From Chryseobacterium taklimakanense (GTDB taxonomy: Bacteria; Bacteroidota; Bacteroidia; Flavobacteriales; Weeksellaceae), in NCBI RefSeq assembly GCF_900187185.1, contig NZ_LT906465.1, positions 2,356,001 to 2,420,000 of the forward strand: a stretch of DNA of 64,000 nt, written 5' to 3'. The translations under genes were made by a program, and so were the position numbers. The notes under the pieces were generated by a model that worked only from the letters and a program-made list of their open reading frames with translations, was not told the origin of the DNA and searched no databases. Shown here one piece after another: positions 22,396-29,601 of this stretch (the first letter of the stretch is position 1; every line of letters begins with the position of its first letter).

Positions 22396-24189
22396 TTAAT
22401 TCGAATTAAAATATTCCCAAACAATTTTGCCTTTAGATTTCCCGAGGATTTCTTCCAAAATCTCAATCGGCGCTTCCTTAATTCTTTTAACGGATTTTAA
22501 TTTGCTGAAGAGCAGTTCGATGGATTTTTCACCGACGCCAGGAATTTCCTCCAGCTCTGTTTTTATGGTTGAATTTTTCCTTCTCGTGCGGTGGTGTTTT
22601 ACGCCGAAACGGTGGGCTTCGTCACGCACGCGCTGCAGGATTTTCAGGGTTTCAGATTTTTTGTCCAGGTACAAAGGAATTGAATCTTCCGGGAAGAAAA
22701 TTTCCTCCAAACGTTTTGCAATGCCGATAATGGTAATTTTTCCGTAAAGCCCGAGCAGTTTTAAACTTTTCACGGCAGAAGAGAGCTGGCCTTTTCCGCC
22801 GTCGATTAATATTAATTGCGGCAGCGGCTCACCTTCATCCAGGAGCCTTTTGTAGCGGCGGTAAATCACTTCTTCCATCGTGGCGAAATCGTTCGGCCCG
22901 TCTACAGTTTTCGGGTGGAAGATCCTGTAATCCGCTTTGGAAGGTTTGCCGTCTTTGAAAACCACGCACGCCGAAACCGGATTTGTCCCTTGGATATTGG
23001 AATTGTCGAAACCTTCGATATGGCGCGGCTCGGCCGGCATTCGCAGCAGTTTCTGCATTTCTGCCATGATGCGGTTGGTGTGGCGTTCCGGATCTACAAT
23101 CTGCACCTGTTTCAGCTTTTCGAGGCGGTATTCTTTGGCATTTTTTTCTGAAAGTTCCACGATGCGTTTTTTGTCGCCCACTTTTGGGACAATCAGTTTA
23201 ACGCCCGGAATTTCAAAATTCAAATGAAACGGAAGCAAAATTTCCCTGGAGTCAGAATCAAATTTCCGGCGTATCTCGATCAGCGCTTCTTCCAGGATTT
23301 CTTCGTCGGTTTCCTCAATTATTTTCTTTATTTCCGTGGTGTAACTTTGGATGATATTTCCGTTCTGGATCTTGAAATAATTCACATAGGCCGCCGTCTC
23401 ATCGCTGGTCATCCCGAAAACATCCACATCATTGATGCTGGGATTTACAACCGTGTGTTTCGCCTGATAATCTTCCAGTAAATCGAGGCGTTCCTTCACC
23501 ATTTGTGCATTTTCGTACTCAAGATTTGATGCATAAGAGGTCATTTCATCCACCAGATAATTCTTTGCAAGCCGGAAATCCCCTTTGATGATCCCGCGGA
23601 TGGCTTCTATTTTTTTATCGTAATCTTCCTTGCTTTCAAGCTGCTCGCACGGGCCTTTGCAGTTTTTGATGTGATATTCCAGGCAGACTTTATATTTTCC
23701 TTCGGCAATTTTTTCAGGAGCCAGGTTCAGGTTGCACGTTCTTAGTTTGTAAATATGTTTAATGGTATCGAGCAGGATTTTTGCCGGGCGCACTTTGGCG
23801 TAAGGGCCATAATATTCCGAACCGTCTTTTATAATCGTTCTGGTGAGGAAAATGCGCGGAAAATCTTCGTTTTTGATGCAGATCCACGGATAGGTTTTGT
23901 CGTCCTTCATCATCACGTTATAAAACGGCTGATGTTCCTTGATCAGATTGTTTTCCAGCAACAGCGCATCGTATTCACTGGGAACAATCGTGGTTTCCAG
24001 CCGTTGTATTTTGCCCACCATAATCCTCGTGCGGTAACCTGAGAGATTCTTGTTGAAATAAGAAAGGACGCGTTTTTTTATATTTTTTGCCTTACCGACA
24101 TACAGCAGCTGCCCGTTTCTGTCGTAATAACGGTACACGCCGGGATCGGAAGGCAGGGTTTTCAGTTGAAGTTCGAGATCGGAGTTCAC
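22396..24189 (-). CDS. uvrC: UvrABC system protein C
   Basis: UvrC makes both incisions around bulky DNA lesions in nucleotide excision repair. The 597-residue protein has the GIY-YIG nuclease domain (about 15-90, PGVYRYYDRNGQLLYVG). The UvrB-binding segment (about 205-240) and the RNase H-like C-terminal nuclease (IEGFDNSNIQG near 375, DGGKGQL near 455) follow. A helix-hairpin-helix pair at the end contains LEEIPGVGEKSIELL. Length is normal. The start is GTG at 24189, because no ATG is near and the -7 box lies only 4 nt upstream. Confidence 0.96.
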   Translation of the reverse strand: MNSDLELQLKTLPSDPGVYRYYDRNGQLLYVGKAKNIKKRVLSYFNKNLSGYRTRIMVGKIQRLETTIVPSEYDALLLENNLIKEHQPFYNVMMKDDKTYPWICIKNEDFPRIFLTRTIIKDGSEYYGPYAKVRPAKILLDTIKHIYKLRTCNLNLAPEKIAEGKYKVCLEYHIKNCKGPCEQLESKEDYDKKIEAIRGIIKGDFRLAKNYLVDEMTSYASNLEYENAQMVKERLDLLEDYQAKHTVVNPSINDVDVFGMTSDETAAYVNYFKIQNGNIIQSYTTEIKKIIEETDEEILEEALIEIRRKFDSDSREILLPFHLNFEIPGVKLIVPKVGDKKRIVELSEKNAKEYRLEKLKQVQIVDPERHTNRIMAEMQKLLRMPAEPRHIEGFDNSNIQGTNPVSACVVFKDGKPSKADYRIFHPKTVDGPNDFATMEEVIYRRYKRLLDEGEPLPQLILIDGGKGQLSSAVKSLKLLGLYGKITIIGIAKRLEEIFFPEDSIPLYLDKKSETLKILQRVRDEAHRFGVKHHRTRRKNSTIKTELEEIPGVGEKSIELLFSKLKSVKRIKEAPIEILEEILGKSKGKIVWEYFNSN

Positions 24190-27575: not shown

Positions 27576-28343
27576 TCAACGCTGCTTTTCTGTCAAATAT
27601 TTCCAATACCGCTTCGGAACGTGCTGAATATGAAGTTTCATGTTTTTTCTTGACGGGATACCGGTTTTCACAAAATAATTCTGCCACATTTTTTGGAAGT
27701 GCTTTTCTTCTTCGTGATGAAACTGTTCGGGATTTTTTAAGTTTTGAATTTGGGCAGATTCAGGATAGAAGAAATCCACGTTCTCCAAATCATAGATAAT
27801 GCCGTAATGTCTCTTCAAATCGAAAATCATCCATTTTTGATCGGCATAACGTTTTTCAAAATGATTTCCGATTAAAGGCAGGACATCGAAATCAGGTTCT
27901 ATTTTTGCAAAATAAAGATTATCTTTTAGCCTTTCAAACCGTACAAAAGCATGCATCCGGTGGATTTCGCGACGCATACTTTTGAGGATTTTTGAGATTT
28001 CCAGCATATCCCGATCCGCCAGATTTTGAAAAACATCCACCCCCGGATTTTGTAAAATGTCTTCAATACTTTTCAAAATCAGTCTTTCTTTATGAGGATG
28101 TTCTGACAGAAAAATTCTGAGTAAAATGCTGATGGTTTCTTTGCCGGATATTTGTTCGATTTTTGCCAAAACTCTCGCGCTTTTTTCAGCATTTTTAAAA
28201 ACCTGATGCTGTTCTGCAAAGAGATTTTCAGTAGAAAAATTTTGCTCTGCTACAATTTCTGCGTTTTCAAATTTATATTCAAAAACTTCAAAAATCGAAG
28301 TCAGTAAGCCTTCAAAACTACCATCGTAAAGTAGAATTTTCAT
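27576..28343 (-). CDS. DUF4130-type putative DNA repair/metabolism protein, partner of the radical SAM protein
   Basis: The 255-residue protein matches the family known as probable DNA metabolism protein (TIGR03915, DUF4130): it opens with LLYDGSFEGLLTSIFEVFE and carries FVRFERLKDNLYFAKIEPDFDVLPLIGNHF in two pieces and RYADQKWMIFD near 155-185. The C-terminal HVPKRYWKYLTE is also typical. In some bacteria the same domain is fused to a uracil-DNA-glycosylase-like domain, absent here. It begins one nucleotide after the stop of the radical SAM gene, so both are made from one message. No catalytic residue is known for this family, and its biochemical activity is unproven. Confidence 0.85.
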   Translation of the reverse strand: MKILLYDGSFEGLLTSIFEVFEYKFENAEIVAEQNFSTENLFAEQHQVFKNAEKSARVLAKIEQISGKETISILLRIFLSEHPHKERLILKSIEDILQNPGVDVFQNLADRDMLEISKILKSMRREIHRMHAFVRFERLKDNLYFAKIEPDFDVLPLIGNHFEKRYADQKWMIFDLKRHYGIIYDLENVDFFYPESAQIQNLKNPEQFHHEEEKHFQKMWQNYFVKTGIPSRKNMKLHIQHVPKRYWKYLTEKQR

Positions 28344-28344
28344 T

Positions 28345-29601
28345 TTAAAACAGTGAAAGTTGCTGGGAAAACGGGTTTTGCCATTTCGATTTTATGCTGT
28401 TCACAATAATCTGCCGCAGCTGCTTTTGGTCAATCATATTCGAAAAAACATTCTGCGTTTCAAATTCAACAAAATATTTTGCCCGATTCATGGCAACTCC
28501 CAATTTCTGTAAATGTTCCATTTCTAGCTTTCGGAATTTCCGCGCCATCAGAATTTTATTGACAGAGCGAACACCAACTCCCGGAATTCGCAACAGCATT
28601 TCTTTGCTTGCCGTATTGATGTTTACGGGAAATTTTTCACGGTTACGCAAAGCCCAGGCCAATTTTGGATCAATTTCCAGATCGAGAAAAGGATTTTGCA
28701 AATCCACAATTTCATCCGCCTGAAACCCATAAAAACGCATCAGCCAATCTGCCTGATACAACCGGTTTTCGCGCTGCATCGGAACTTGTGAAAAAACCGA
28801 GGGCAATCTCGGATCTTCCAGCATCGGAACGTAACCGGAATAATAAACGCGGCGCATTTCGTAATTTTTATAGAAATGATCGGCCACTTTAATGATTTTT
28901 AAATCGGTTTCATTGGTTGCACCCACAATCATTTGTGTAGATTGTCCTGCAGCCGCAAATTTTGGGACTTTTCTGAAAATTTTCTTTTCTTCCTTGTAAA
29001 GTGTGAGCTCATTTTTAATAAAAGTCATCGGTTTTACCATATCTGCGTGACTTTTTTCGGGAGCGAGAAGTTTTAAACCTTTTTCTGTGGGAATTTCAAG
29101 GTTAATGGAAAGTCGGTCTGCGTAAAGCCCAGCTTCTTTTAAAATTTCATCACTTGCGCCGGGAATGGTTTTCAGATGAATATAGCCGAAAAATTTGTGC
29201 TCCTGCCGAAGTTTTTTTGCCACACGAACCAGCCGTTCCATGGTTGTATCGGCATCTTTAAAAATTCCGGAACTCAGGAACAAGCCTTCAATATAATTTC
29301 TGCGGTAAAAACTCATGGTAAGTTCCACCACTTCATCCACGGTGAAAGCAGCTCTTTTAACGTCGTTTGATTTCCGGGAAACACAATACGCACAATCGAA
29401 AATGCAGTGGTTTGTCAACAGAATTTTAAGCAGGGAAATACATCGTCCGTCTTCGGTGTAGCTATGGCAAATTCCCGAACCATGGCTGTTTCCAAGCCCG
29501 CCTTTGTTGGATCTTTTTCCTCCGCTGGATGCACAGGAAACATCATACTTTGCAGCATCTGCAAGGATTTCCAGTTTTTCGTTAAGGCGGTCGAAATTCA
29601 T
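28345..29601 (-). CDS. Putative DNA modification/repair radical SAM protein with C-terminal clamp-binding motif
   Basis: The 418-residue protein matches the radical SAM family (TIGR03916) always found paired with DUF4130 proteins. The iron-sulfur ligands are Cys66, Cys70 and Cys73 in CIFDCAYC. Extra Cys at 23, 45 and 54 may serve another cluster or metal. A helix-hairpin-helix DNA-binding unit lies at about 328-362 (INTASKEMLLRIPGVGVRSV). The last six residues are QQLSLF, the consensus for binding the DNA polymerase sliding clamp. Together these suggest a radical chemistry enzyme acting on DNA at replication or repair sites. A TATTTTTG box at 29625-29632 lies 23 nt upstream. The reaction itself is unknown. 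Confidence 0.88.
   Translation of the reverse strand: MNFDRLNEKLEILADAAKYDVSCASSGGKRSNKGGLGNSHGSGICHSYTEDGRCISLLKILLTNHCIFDCAYCVSRKSNDVKRAAFTVDEVVELTMSFYRRNYIEGLFLSSGIFKDADTTMERLVRVAKKLRQEHKFFGYIHLKTIPGASDEILKEAGLYADRLSINLEIPTEKGLKLLAPEKSHADMVKPMTFIKNELTLYKEEKKIFRKVPKFAAAGQSTQMIVGATNETDLKIIKVADHFYKNYEMRRVYYSGYVPMLEDPRLPSVFSQVPMQRENRLYQADWLMRFYGFQADEIVDLQNPFLDLEIDPKLAWALRNREKFPVNINTASKEMLLRIPGVGVRSVNKILMARKFRKLEMEHLQKLGVAMNRAKYFVEFETQNVFSNMIDQKQLRQIIVNSIKSKWQNPFSQQLSLF

Follow-up and report, generated by a model that had tools for sequence, protein, structure and literature searches.

Bacterial proteins commonly bind the sliding clamp through the motif QL[S/D]LF, or more generally QxxLF; PolC ends in a C-terminal QLSLF whose binding to the clamp has been measured, and QLSLPL is a tight-binding Escherichia coli clamp peptide (PMC12309361). 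A two-gene operon, COG1573-COG4277, in which a uracil-DNA glycosylase (UDG) superfamily gene stands with a second gene, is listed together with SplB as SOS-regulated, and earlier reports of SOS regulation in Verrucomicrobia and Alphaproteobacteria are cited in the same work (PMC8565304). Here, we describe a gene pair in a 64,000-nucleotide stretch of the Chryseobacterium taklimakanense genome (assembly GCF_900187185.1, contig NZ_LT906465.1, positions 2,356,001 to 2,420,000; hereafter, the window), consisting of a radical S-adenosylmethionine (SAM) protein of family TIGR03916 and a partner of family TIGR03915/DUF4130. We take COG4277 to be the same family as TIGR03916; the window pair differs from the COG1573-COG4277 operon in that its partner lacks a UDG domain and in that the 90 nucleotides upstream of the window gene, read by eye, show no exact known SOS box. 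Judging from the conservation of its C-terminal tail, the radical SAM protein very likely docks on the DnaN sliding clamp, and we consider it reasonably probable that it is, taken as a whole, an SOS-linked, clamp-tethered enzyme of DNA repair.

The family pair has been described before, with a mutagenesis-related role guessed for DUF4130 alongside radical SAM and UDG proteins (PMC3765255), and a "repair radical SAM protein" is upregulated in Acinetobacter on desiccation (PMC13130816) and in Fusobacterium on co-culture (PMC9848294); the LexA response of Streptomyces venezuelae includes a radical SAM protein of unspecified family (PMC9380542). PMC10776899 and PMC1839093 yielded nothing on the TIGR03916/TIGR03915 pair. 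Within the open-licence papers searched, we found no radical SAM client of the clamp and no description of the clamp tail, of its sharing with other families, of the extra cysteines, or of the partner fold.

The C-terminal tail and the sliding clamp

A sequence-only reading of the window had described a radical SAM protein with a CxxxCxxC motif, a helix-hairpin-helix (HhH) unit and the terminal peptide QQLSLF, followed one nucleotide later by its partner, and open reading frames (ORFs), family scores and the sequence itself confirm this arrangement (Table 1). Residues 6 to 418 align to profile positions 1 to 415 of 415, covering the TIGR03916 model fully; PF04055 places the protein in the radical SAM superfamily (44.2 bits, cut-off 29.5); its C-terminus reads ...SQQLSLF; and base 28344 alone separates its stop codon from the partner start. 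The HhH match to PF12836 scores 24.9 bits, slightly under the 27-bit Pfam cut-off, and the HhH glycines are near-invariant among relatives (G341 in 257/257 rows and G343 in 256/257 of the alignment introduced next).

We collected 258 loci with a relative from a Bacteroidota draw, a Pseudomonadota draw, 80 named loci, viral-collection loci, and plasmid- and phage-collection records. Together with the window gene these gave 257 intact aligned rows, two loci being left out of the tail count (L140, a 119-amino-acid fragment, and L269, truncated by a contig end); start codons of relatives are computed guesses close to the BLAST-expected start. The tail was read from this alignment as the residues after F377, and collapsing duplicate rows (window/L001, L119/L142, L058/L141, L077/L143, and L137/L144) left 247 distinct tails.

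A clamp-type motif after the HhH domain is kept in 255 of the 257 rows, spanning five phyla, and the two rows that lack it, L137 and L144, represent a single Fibrimonadaceae gene, present twice, which has stop codons inside the match. The sequence-only reading had proposed aligning the C-termini, with poor conservation as the outcome that would count against clamp docking, and poor conservation did not appear. What stood is the motif; the exact QQLSLF did not, the third position being free and variants such as QLVLPGLF, QLSLGF and QMALW occurring. Among distinct tails, 246 of 247 carry the motif (176 strict, 39 QLxLP-type, 22 six-residue, and 9 general), the strict class being reached by 2.1% of shuffled tails. 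The literature consensus QxxLF is present in 145/247 distinct tails (2.0% when shuffled) and the narrower Q[LM][SD]LF in 64/247 (0.05% when shuffled). Every row of the two draws falls into some class: 75/75 in Bacteroidota (35 strict, 39 QLxLP-type, and 1 six-residue; 31 with QxxLF) and 83/83 in Pseudomonadota (66 strict, 10 six-residue, and 7 general; 46 with QxxLF). Relatives from Bacillota, Fusobacteriota and Gemmatimonadota also keep the motif, which in some is followed by up to 34 residues.

Agreement between divergent sequences was computed over 19,891 row pairs with a core identity under 60%. The 15 residues preceding the motif agree in 3 to 15% of these pairs, as does the free third motif position in 13%, and positions 2 and 4 agree in 73% and 79%, respectively, figures that carry the limit that anchoring on Q fixes position 1 and that the class definitions favour positions 2 and 4. 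In unanchored alignments, Q414 is invariant (17/17 and 45/45 rows). As far as alignments can tell, tail conservation thus exceeds passive carry-over with the rest of the protein. At the DNA level, a search of the organism's own genome for the exact QLxLF-stop pattern (L at positions 2 and 4) returned 29 raw matches, versus 19 for the reversed control. Translated by eye, 7 of the 29 truly encode Q-L-x-L-F-stop, among them the window gene (C1:2384345-2384362(-), equal to window 28345-28362); of the other six sites, two end a long ORF, those of the PA0069-family and DUF763 proteins described below, and four end no ORF of at least 30 amino acids. Within the window, the radical SAM gene is the 1 of 58 ORFs (at least 150 amino acids, with Met) that has the strict motif no more than five residues from its end.

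Residues 410 to 418 are of low confidence in the structure model, which fits a flexible peptide, and a conserved motif in an accessible, probably flexible tail is one mark of a DnaN client. The conservation of the tail, its position pattern and its match to the known QL[S/D]LF/QxxLF motif together make docking on the clamp very likely, in keeping with the earlier interpretation; PolC differs in that its clamp binding has been measured, that of the TIGR03916 tail being a sequence prediction.

Table 1. Coordinates of the gene pair and of other genes discussed (window positions unless a locus is named)
Feature	Coordinates	Strand	Details
Radical SAM gene	28345..29601	-	ORF, 418 amino acids; TIGR03916 673 bits, cut-off 343.5
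Extra cysteines C23, C45, C54	29440..29535	-	C23 29533-29535; C45 29467-29469; C54 29440-29442
CxxxCxxC radical SAM cluster motif	29383..29406	-	residues 66-73, Cys at 66/70/73
Helix-hairpin-helix stretch	28531..28629	-	residues 325-357; PF12836 E 2.2e-5
C-terminal clamp-type peptide QLSLF	28348..28362	-	extra Q before QLSLF; stop codon 28345-28347
Partner gene	27576..28343	-	255 amino acids; TIGR03915 260.6 bits (cut-off 112.25); DUF4130 169.6 bits
DGSFEG in partner	28308..28325	-	partner residues 7-12; strand-DG-helix in model
PA0069-family (SplB-like) gene	L199:1266-2345	-	own genome, C1 about 1.61 Mb
DUF763 genes	L201:1264-2481 (own genome); L377-L383	- (L201)
Distant relative	L055:3995-5260	+	34% identity; Gemmatirosa plasmid

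SOS boxes and other families with the same tail

GTTC-N7-GTTC is the SOS box of Alphaproteobacteria and CTGT-N8-ACAG that of E. coli (PMC8565304), the former being given also for Caulobacter (PMC12700426). Scanning 200 nucleotides upstream of the radical SAM gene in Pseudomonadota (either strand for GTTCN7GTTC), we found GTTCN7GTTC at 54 and CTGTN8ACAG at 16 of the 83 drawn genes, together 70/83; at other ORFs of the same loci, which served as the control, the count was 0/78. When four named plasmid loci are added, the resulting set of 87 has 58 and 17 boxes, respectively, versus 0.48 and 0.14 in shuffled upstreams.

For Bacteroidota, counting of spaced dyads in 131 upstreams ranked CTAA-N5-TTAG first and TGGA-N5-TCCA ninth, a ranking made before the published Bacteroidetes motifs, CTAA-N5-TTAG and GGA-N5-TCC (PMC8565304), were known to the analyst. 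Exact instances of the two published motifs occur in 35/148 upstreams versus about 1.3 expected from shuffles, and CTAAN5TTAG with one mismatch occurs in 37/148 versus 15.7. Weeksellaceae use diverged SOS sites (PMC8565304); the diverged site TTACN5GTAA is present in 0/148 upstreams and, with one mismatch, in 8/148, versus 15.2 in shuffles. By eye, a TTGAN6TCAA-type palindrome precedes the gene in several Chryseobacterium-like upstreams (L004, L062, L063, L065, L067, and L068) and is possibly a diverged operator. The predicted role in DNA repair or modification that the sequence-only reading had given for the two families gains support, on the side of repair, from the SOS boxes in the family and from the SOS-regulated UDG operon, which appears to be the same operon and has already been published as under SOS control (PMC8565304).

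The PA0069/SplB-like family (COG1533) resembles TIGR03916 in combining a radical SAM domain, a clamp-type tail and SOS boxes. Its member in the organism's own genome (447 bits) ends in EQQLRLF, and when the best 30 of 51 Pseudomonadota matches are taken, the clamp-type tail is present in 32/32 rows of the family, 25 of them strict (shuffled tails: 1.5% strict and 15.8% in any class); upstream of 30 such genes, GTTCN7GTTC is found at 19/30 genes and CTGTN8ACAG at 1/30. The two families are recognised by different models, and the PA0069-family protein of the own genome matches the spore photoproduct lyase model, whereas the TIGR03916 protein of the window does not. In one drawn Pseudomonadota genome (L163), a single short stretch holds both the TIGR03916 gene and a PA0069-family gene whose product ends in GAQLRLL. 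The DUF763 protein of the own genome has the C-terminus IQLSLF, and across 118 Bacteroidota genomes QLxLF is terminal or one residue short of the end in 7/7 DUF763 proteins (the own one included), making this protein a possible unrecognised clamp client on sequence grounds. As the PA0069-family and DUF763 tails suggest, screening for conserved C-terminal QLxLF peptides may reveal further unrecognised clients.

Cysteines, partner and distribution

Beyond the radical SAM cysteine triad (257/257 rows), C23, C45 and C54 are each present in 256/257 rows; six conserved cysteines suggest two iron-sulfur (Fe-S) clusters, the second of which is probably held by these three residues. LipA, MiaB and MoaA have a second, site-differentiated Fe-S cluster with three cysteine ligands. 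The sole exception is a gene on a Gemmatirosa plasmid (L055), which lacks all three cysteines, keeps the tail QLSLW, scores 302.9 bits (under the family cut-off), and is followed by 3.9 kb without a DUF4130 match; it perhaps belongs to a sister family without the second cluster.

The radical SAM protein gave a moderate model (predicted local distance difference test, pLDDT, of 79.3) that is poor near the cysteines. The best fold matches are lipoyl synthase (Z of 15.2, root mean square deviation [rmsd] of 3.5 over 228 residues) and HydE (Z of 14.3, rmsd of 2.7 over 209 residues), in lists where a family's absence excludes nothing. The window protein differs from both in its additional HhH domain and clamp tail, and its N-terminal cysteine spacing is presumably unlike the lipoyl synthase motif. 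Membership of the spore photoproduct lyase family was considered and found to be without sequence support, TIGR04070 not being among the 10 families that the window protein matches at an E of ≤0.01.

The sequence-only reading had stated that TIGR03916 and TIGR03915/DUF4130 occur together, and they largely do: a same-strand DUF4130 gene lies within the fetched DNA at 162 of 173 loci (E of ≤1e-4), in 126 of these within 60 bases, and in the Pseudomonadota draw the partner is found in 75/83 at an E of ≤1e-6. Among the 68 closed Pseudomonadota partners, 50 are at least 400 amino acids long, and 18 are short and show no UDG domain, judged by length or scan. The marks of UdgX, a cross-linking uracil-DNA glycosylase, are GEQPG, the R-loop KRRxH, and HPS (PMC10359453), and they are common to most of the fused partners: among the 50 long ones, GEQPG is found in 47, the R-loop (as [KR]RRxH) in 35, HPS in 45, and all three in 34. 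A UdgX-type domain is thus fused to most DUF4130 partners in Pseudomonadota, and the window partner, in which the family scan shows DUF4130 only, has no UDG domain; two UDG-superfamily genes lie elsewhere in its genome. The window partner and the 18 short ones suggest that a UdgX domain on the same polypeptide should be dispensable for the core reaction.

The window partner was modelled with a pLDDT of 94.1. Two PDB chains pass a Foldseek E of ≤0.001, both of them DHH-family PAP phosphatase (best 6.5e-5), and in a second fold comparison the first 31 rows are all DHH-superfamily proteins by title or by our own reading of the chain, including PAP phosphatase (Z of 9.3, rmsd of 5.3 over 199 residues), RecJ (Z of 8.2) and Cdc45 (Z of about 7). 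The match is modest (TM score of 0.42), and models that lack a clear match often have best Z values of 7 to 8. The leading folds, RecJ, Cdc45 and nanoRNase, differ from the partner in metal-binding motifs that are not recognisable in it. A DHH relation of DUF4130 also found no support by profile-profile comparison with hhalign, though there a known DHHA1 relative, AlaRS, scored only 2.9% against nanoRNase (nanoRNase-RecJ, 99.5%). Because the fold scores are modest and hhalign came back empty, we hold the resemblance of the modelled partner to RecJ/Cdc45 (DHH) proteins to be fairly probable and go no further. The peptide DGSFEG is a possible remnant of DHH motif I; DG[STAD]xxG near the N-terminus is found in 130/176 short partners and 3/61 fused ones. 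Partner residues invariant in 43 rows include R57, E126, R135, R165, W171, D175, R178, W220, R232, N234, P243, W247, E252 and K253, which look like nucleic-acid or partner binding and not like a metal site.

TIGR03916 is over the cut-off in 80 of 247 drawn Bacteroidota genomes and 84 of 398 drawn Pseudomonadota genomes. Further Bacteroidota matches stand outside the row set, both over the cut-off (G036, G193, G075 and G024, the last two partial) and as sub-cut-off pieces (G052, G060 and G201:C13). At an E of ≤0.001, 3 of 14 control genomes match (Caulobacter, a Bacteroides and, under the cut-off, Thermotoga), 0/4 archaea among them; the Thermotoga match disappears at an E of ≤1e-30. The Caulobacter control, Caulobacter vibrioides, matches the PA0069 family as well. 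A phage origin was rejected: 10 phage-collection records match, but the sole annotated one inspected (L056, CAKLQH020000003.1, labelled Acinetobacter phage) carries glyS, glyQ and a gene for an acyl-CoA dehydrogenase next to the pair and is for this reason read as bacterial chromosome-like; L058, another phage-collection record with a match, bears no annotation. A single-sequence scan of the viral collection gave no relative, and a profile scan gave two loci. In the window itself, about 3.4 kb separate the pair from a 597-amino-acid ORF at 22396-24189(-), which we take to be UvrC.

Weighing the explanations

We read the pair as a DNA-damage-response repair module. The TIGR03916 protein would be a radical SAM enzyme that has an HhH unit for DNA binding and probably carries a second Fe-S cluster, and its flexible C-terminal QLxLF peptide would dock it on the DnaN clamp, placing the enzyme on DNA at clamps present at, or left behind by, replication or repair synthesis. 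Its usual partner, the DUF4130 protein, would probably act as a catalytically worn, RecJ/Cdc45-like subunit that holds DNA. The UdgX-type domain on most Pseudomonadota partners points to pyrimidine or abasic-site damage as the candidate lesion, and the enzyme would most likely abstract hydrogen from a damaged base or sugar, reversing the lesion or preparing its repair, an act to which we give about an even chance. To DNA as the substrate we commit. Sequence comparison establishes the parts on which this account builds, namely, the conservation of tail and cysteines, the gene pairing, the SOS boxes ahead of most Pseudomonadota and some Bacteroidota genes, and the UdgX motifs in fused partners.

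Several observations weigh against this account. On the side of the tail, shuffled tails reach any class in 20.3% of cases, the classes beyond the literature consensus were defined after the tails were seen, 39 of the 75 Bacteroidota rows have QLxLP-type tails (e.g., QLVLPGLF) instead of QLxLF, and agreement at the fifth motif position, where F, L, W and P take turns, falls to 30% of divergent pairs. As for regulation, neither SOS box precedes 13/83 of the Pseudomonadota genes, the exact site is found in only 35/148 Bacteroidota upstreams, a minority, and no exact known SOS site was seen by eye in the 90 nucleotides upstream of the window gene. The partner has no BLAST match at 11/173 loci (three of these, L078, L132 and L137, have over 5.9 kb of DNA downstream), and hhalign of the partner against RecJ and nanoRNase gives a probability of 0.1% each.

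Two alternatives concern what the tail and the partner do. The tail could dock elsewhere, for instance, on the DUF4130 partner or on another repair protein, and merely resemble a clamp motif, a view favoured by the QLxLP and QMALW tails, which deviate from QxxLF, and by the predicted nature of DnaN binding; we give it a slim chance, in that the same peptide ends PA0069-family (32/32 read) and DUF763 (7/7) proteins, which are unrelated to the partner, that the Gemmatirosa relative keeps QLSLW with no DUF4130 found by BLAST in the DNA downstream, and that the pattern of Q, L, a free position, L, and a hydrophobic residue is that of the clamp motif. Equally doubtful is a partner that is an active DHH-type nuclease or phosphoesterase trimming DNA ends, with the radical SAM protein as its targeting subunit. 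PAP phosphatase, by Foldseek E and by Z, and RecJ, by Z, do lead its fold matches, but these Z scores are modest and without profile support, DG[STAD]xxG is rare in fused partners, and the invariant residues, chiefly Arg, aromatic, Glu, Lys and Asn next to a single Asp, do not form a metal-binding set.

The chemistry invites two further alternatives. An SplB-like photolyase that directly reverses pyrimidine dimers would suit the SOS link, SplB (COG1533) being itself treated as SOS-regulated (PMC8565304), and DUF4130-linked radical SAM proteins have been given that name (PMC3765255); we nevertheless find it unlikely, given that TIGR04070 is not among the matches of the window protein at an E of ≤0.01, whereas the genome's PA0069-family protein reaches 4.8e-6 against it, and that lipoyl synthase and HydE lead the fold matches of the window protein, though an unlisted family is not thereby excluded. 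Lipoyl synthase and HydE are not known to act on DNA, and these folds could be taken to mean that the enzyme works on RNA, a nucleotide or a protein, the tail just timing its work to DNA synthesis; the HhH unit, the DNA glycosylase domain found on fused partners and the SOS boxes make this very improbable.

A bolder version of the clamp-tethered repair enzyme, which we rate as rather unlikely, has a site-differentiated second cluster rewriting or sulfur-modifying the bases of fresh DNA, with a Cdc45-like dead-nuclease partner keeping the enzyme in place. If that version were true, the enzyme and the PA0069/SplB-like family would belong to a wider class of clamp-riding radical SAM proteins in the SOS response. 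For the family at large, docking on the clamp would tell where an orphan pair acts, and clamp-delivered, oxygen-sensitive radical chemistry would add a new mode to DNA repair.

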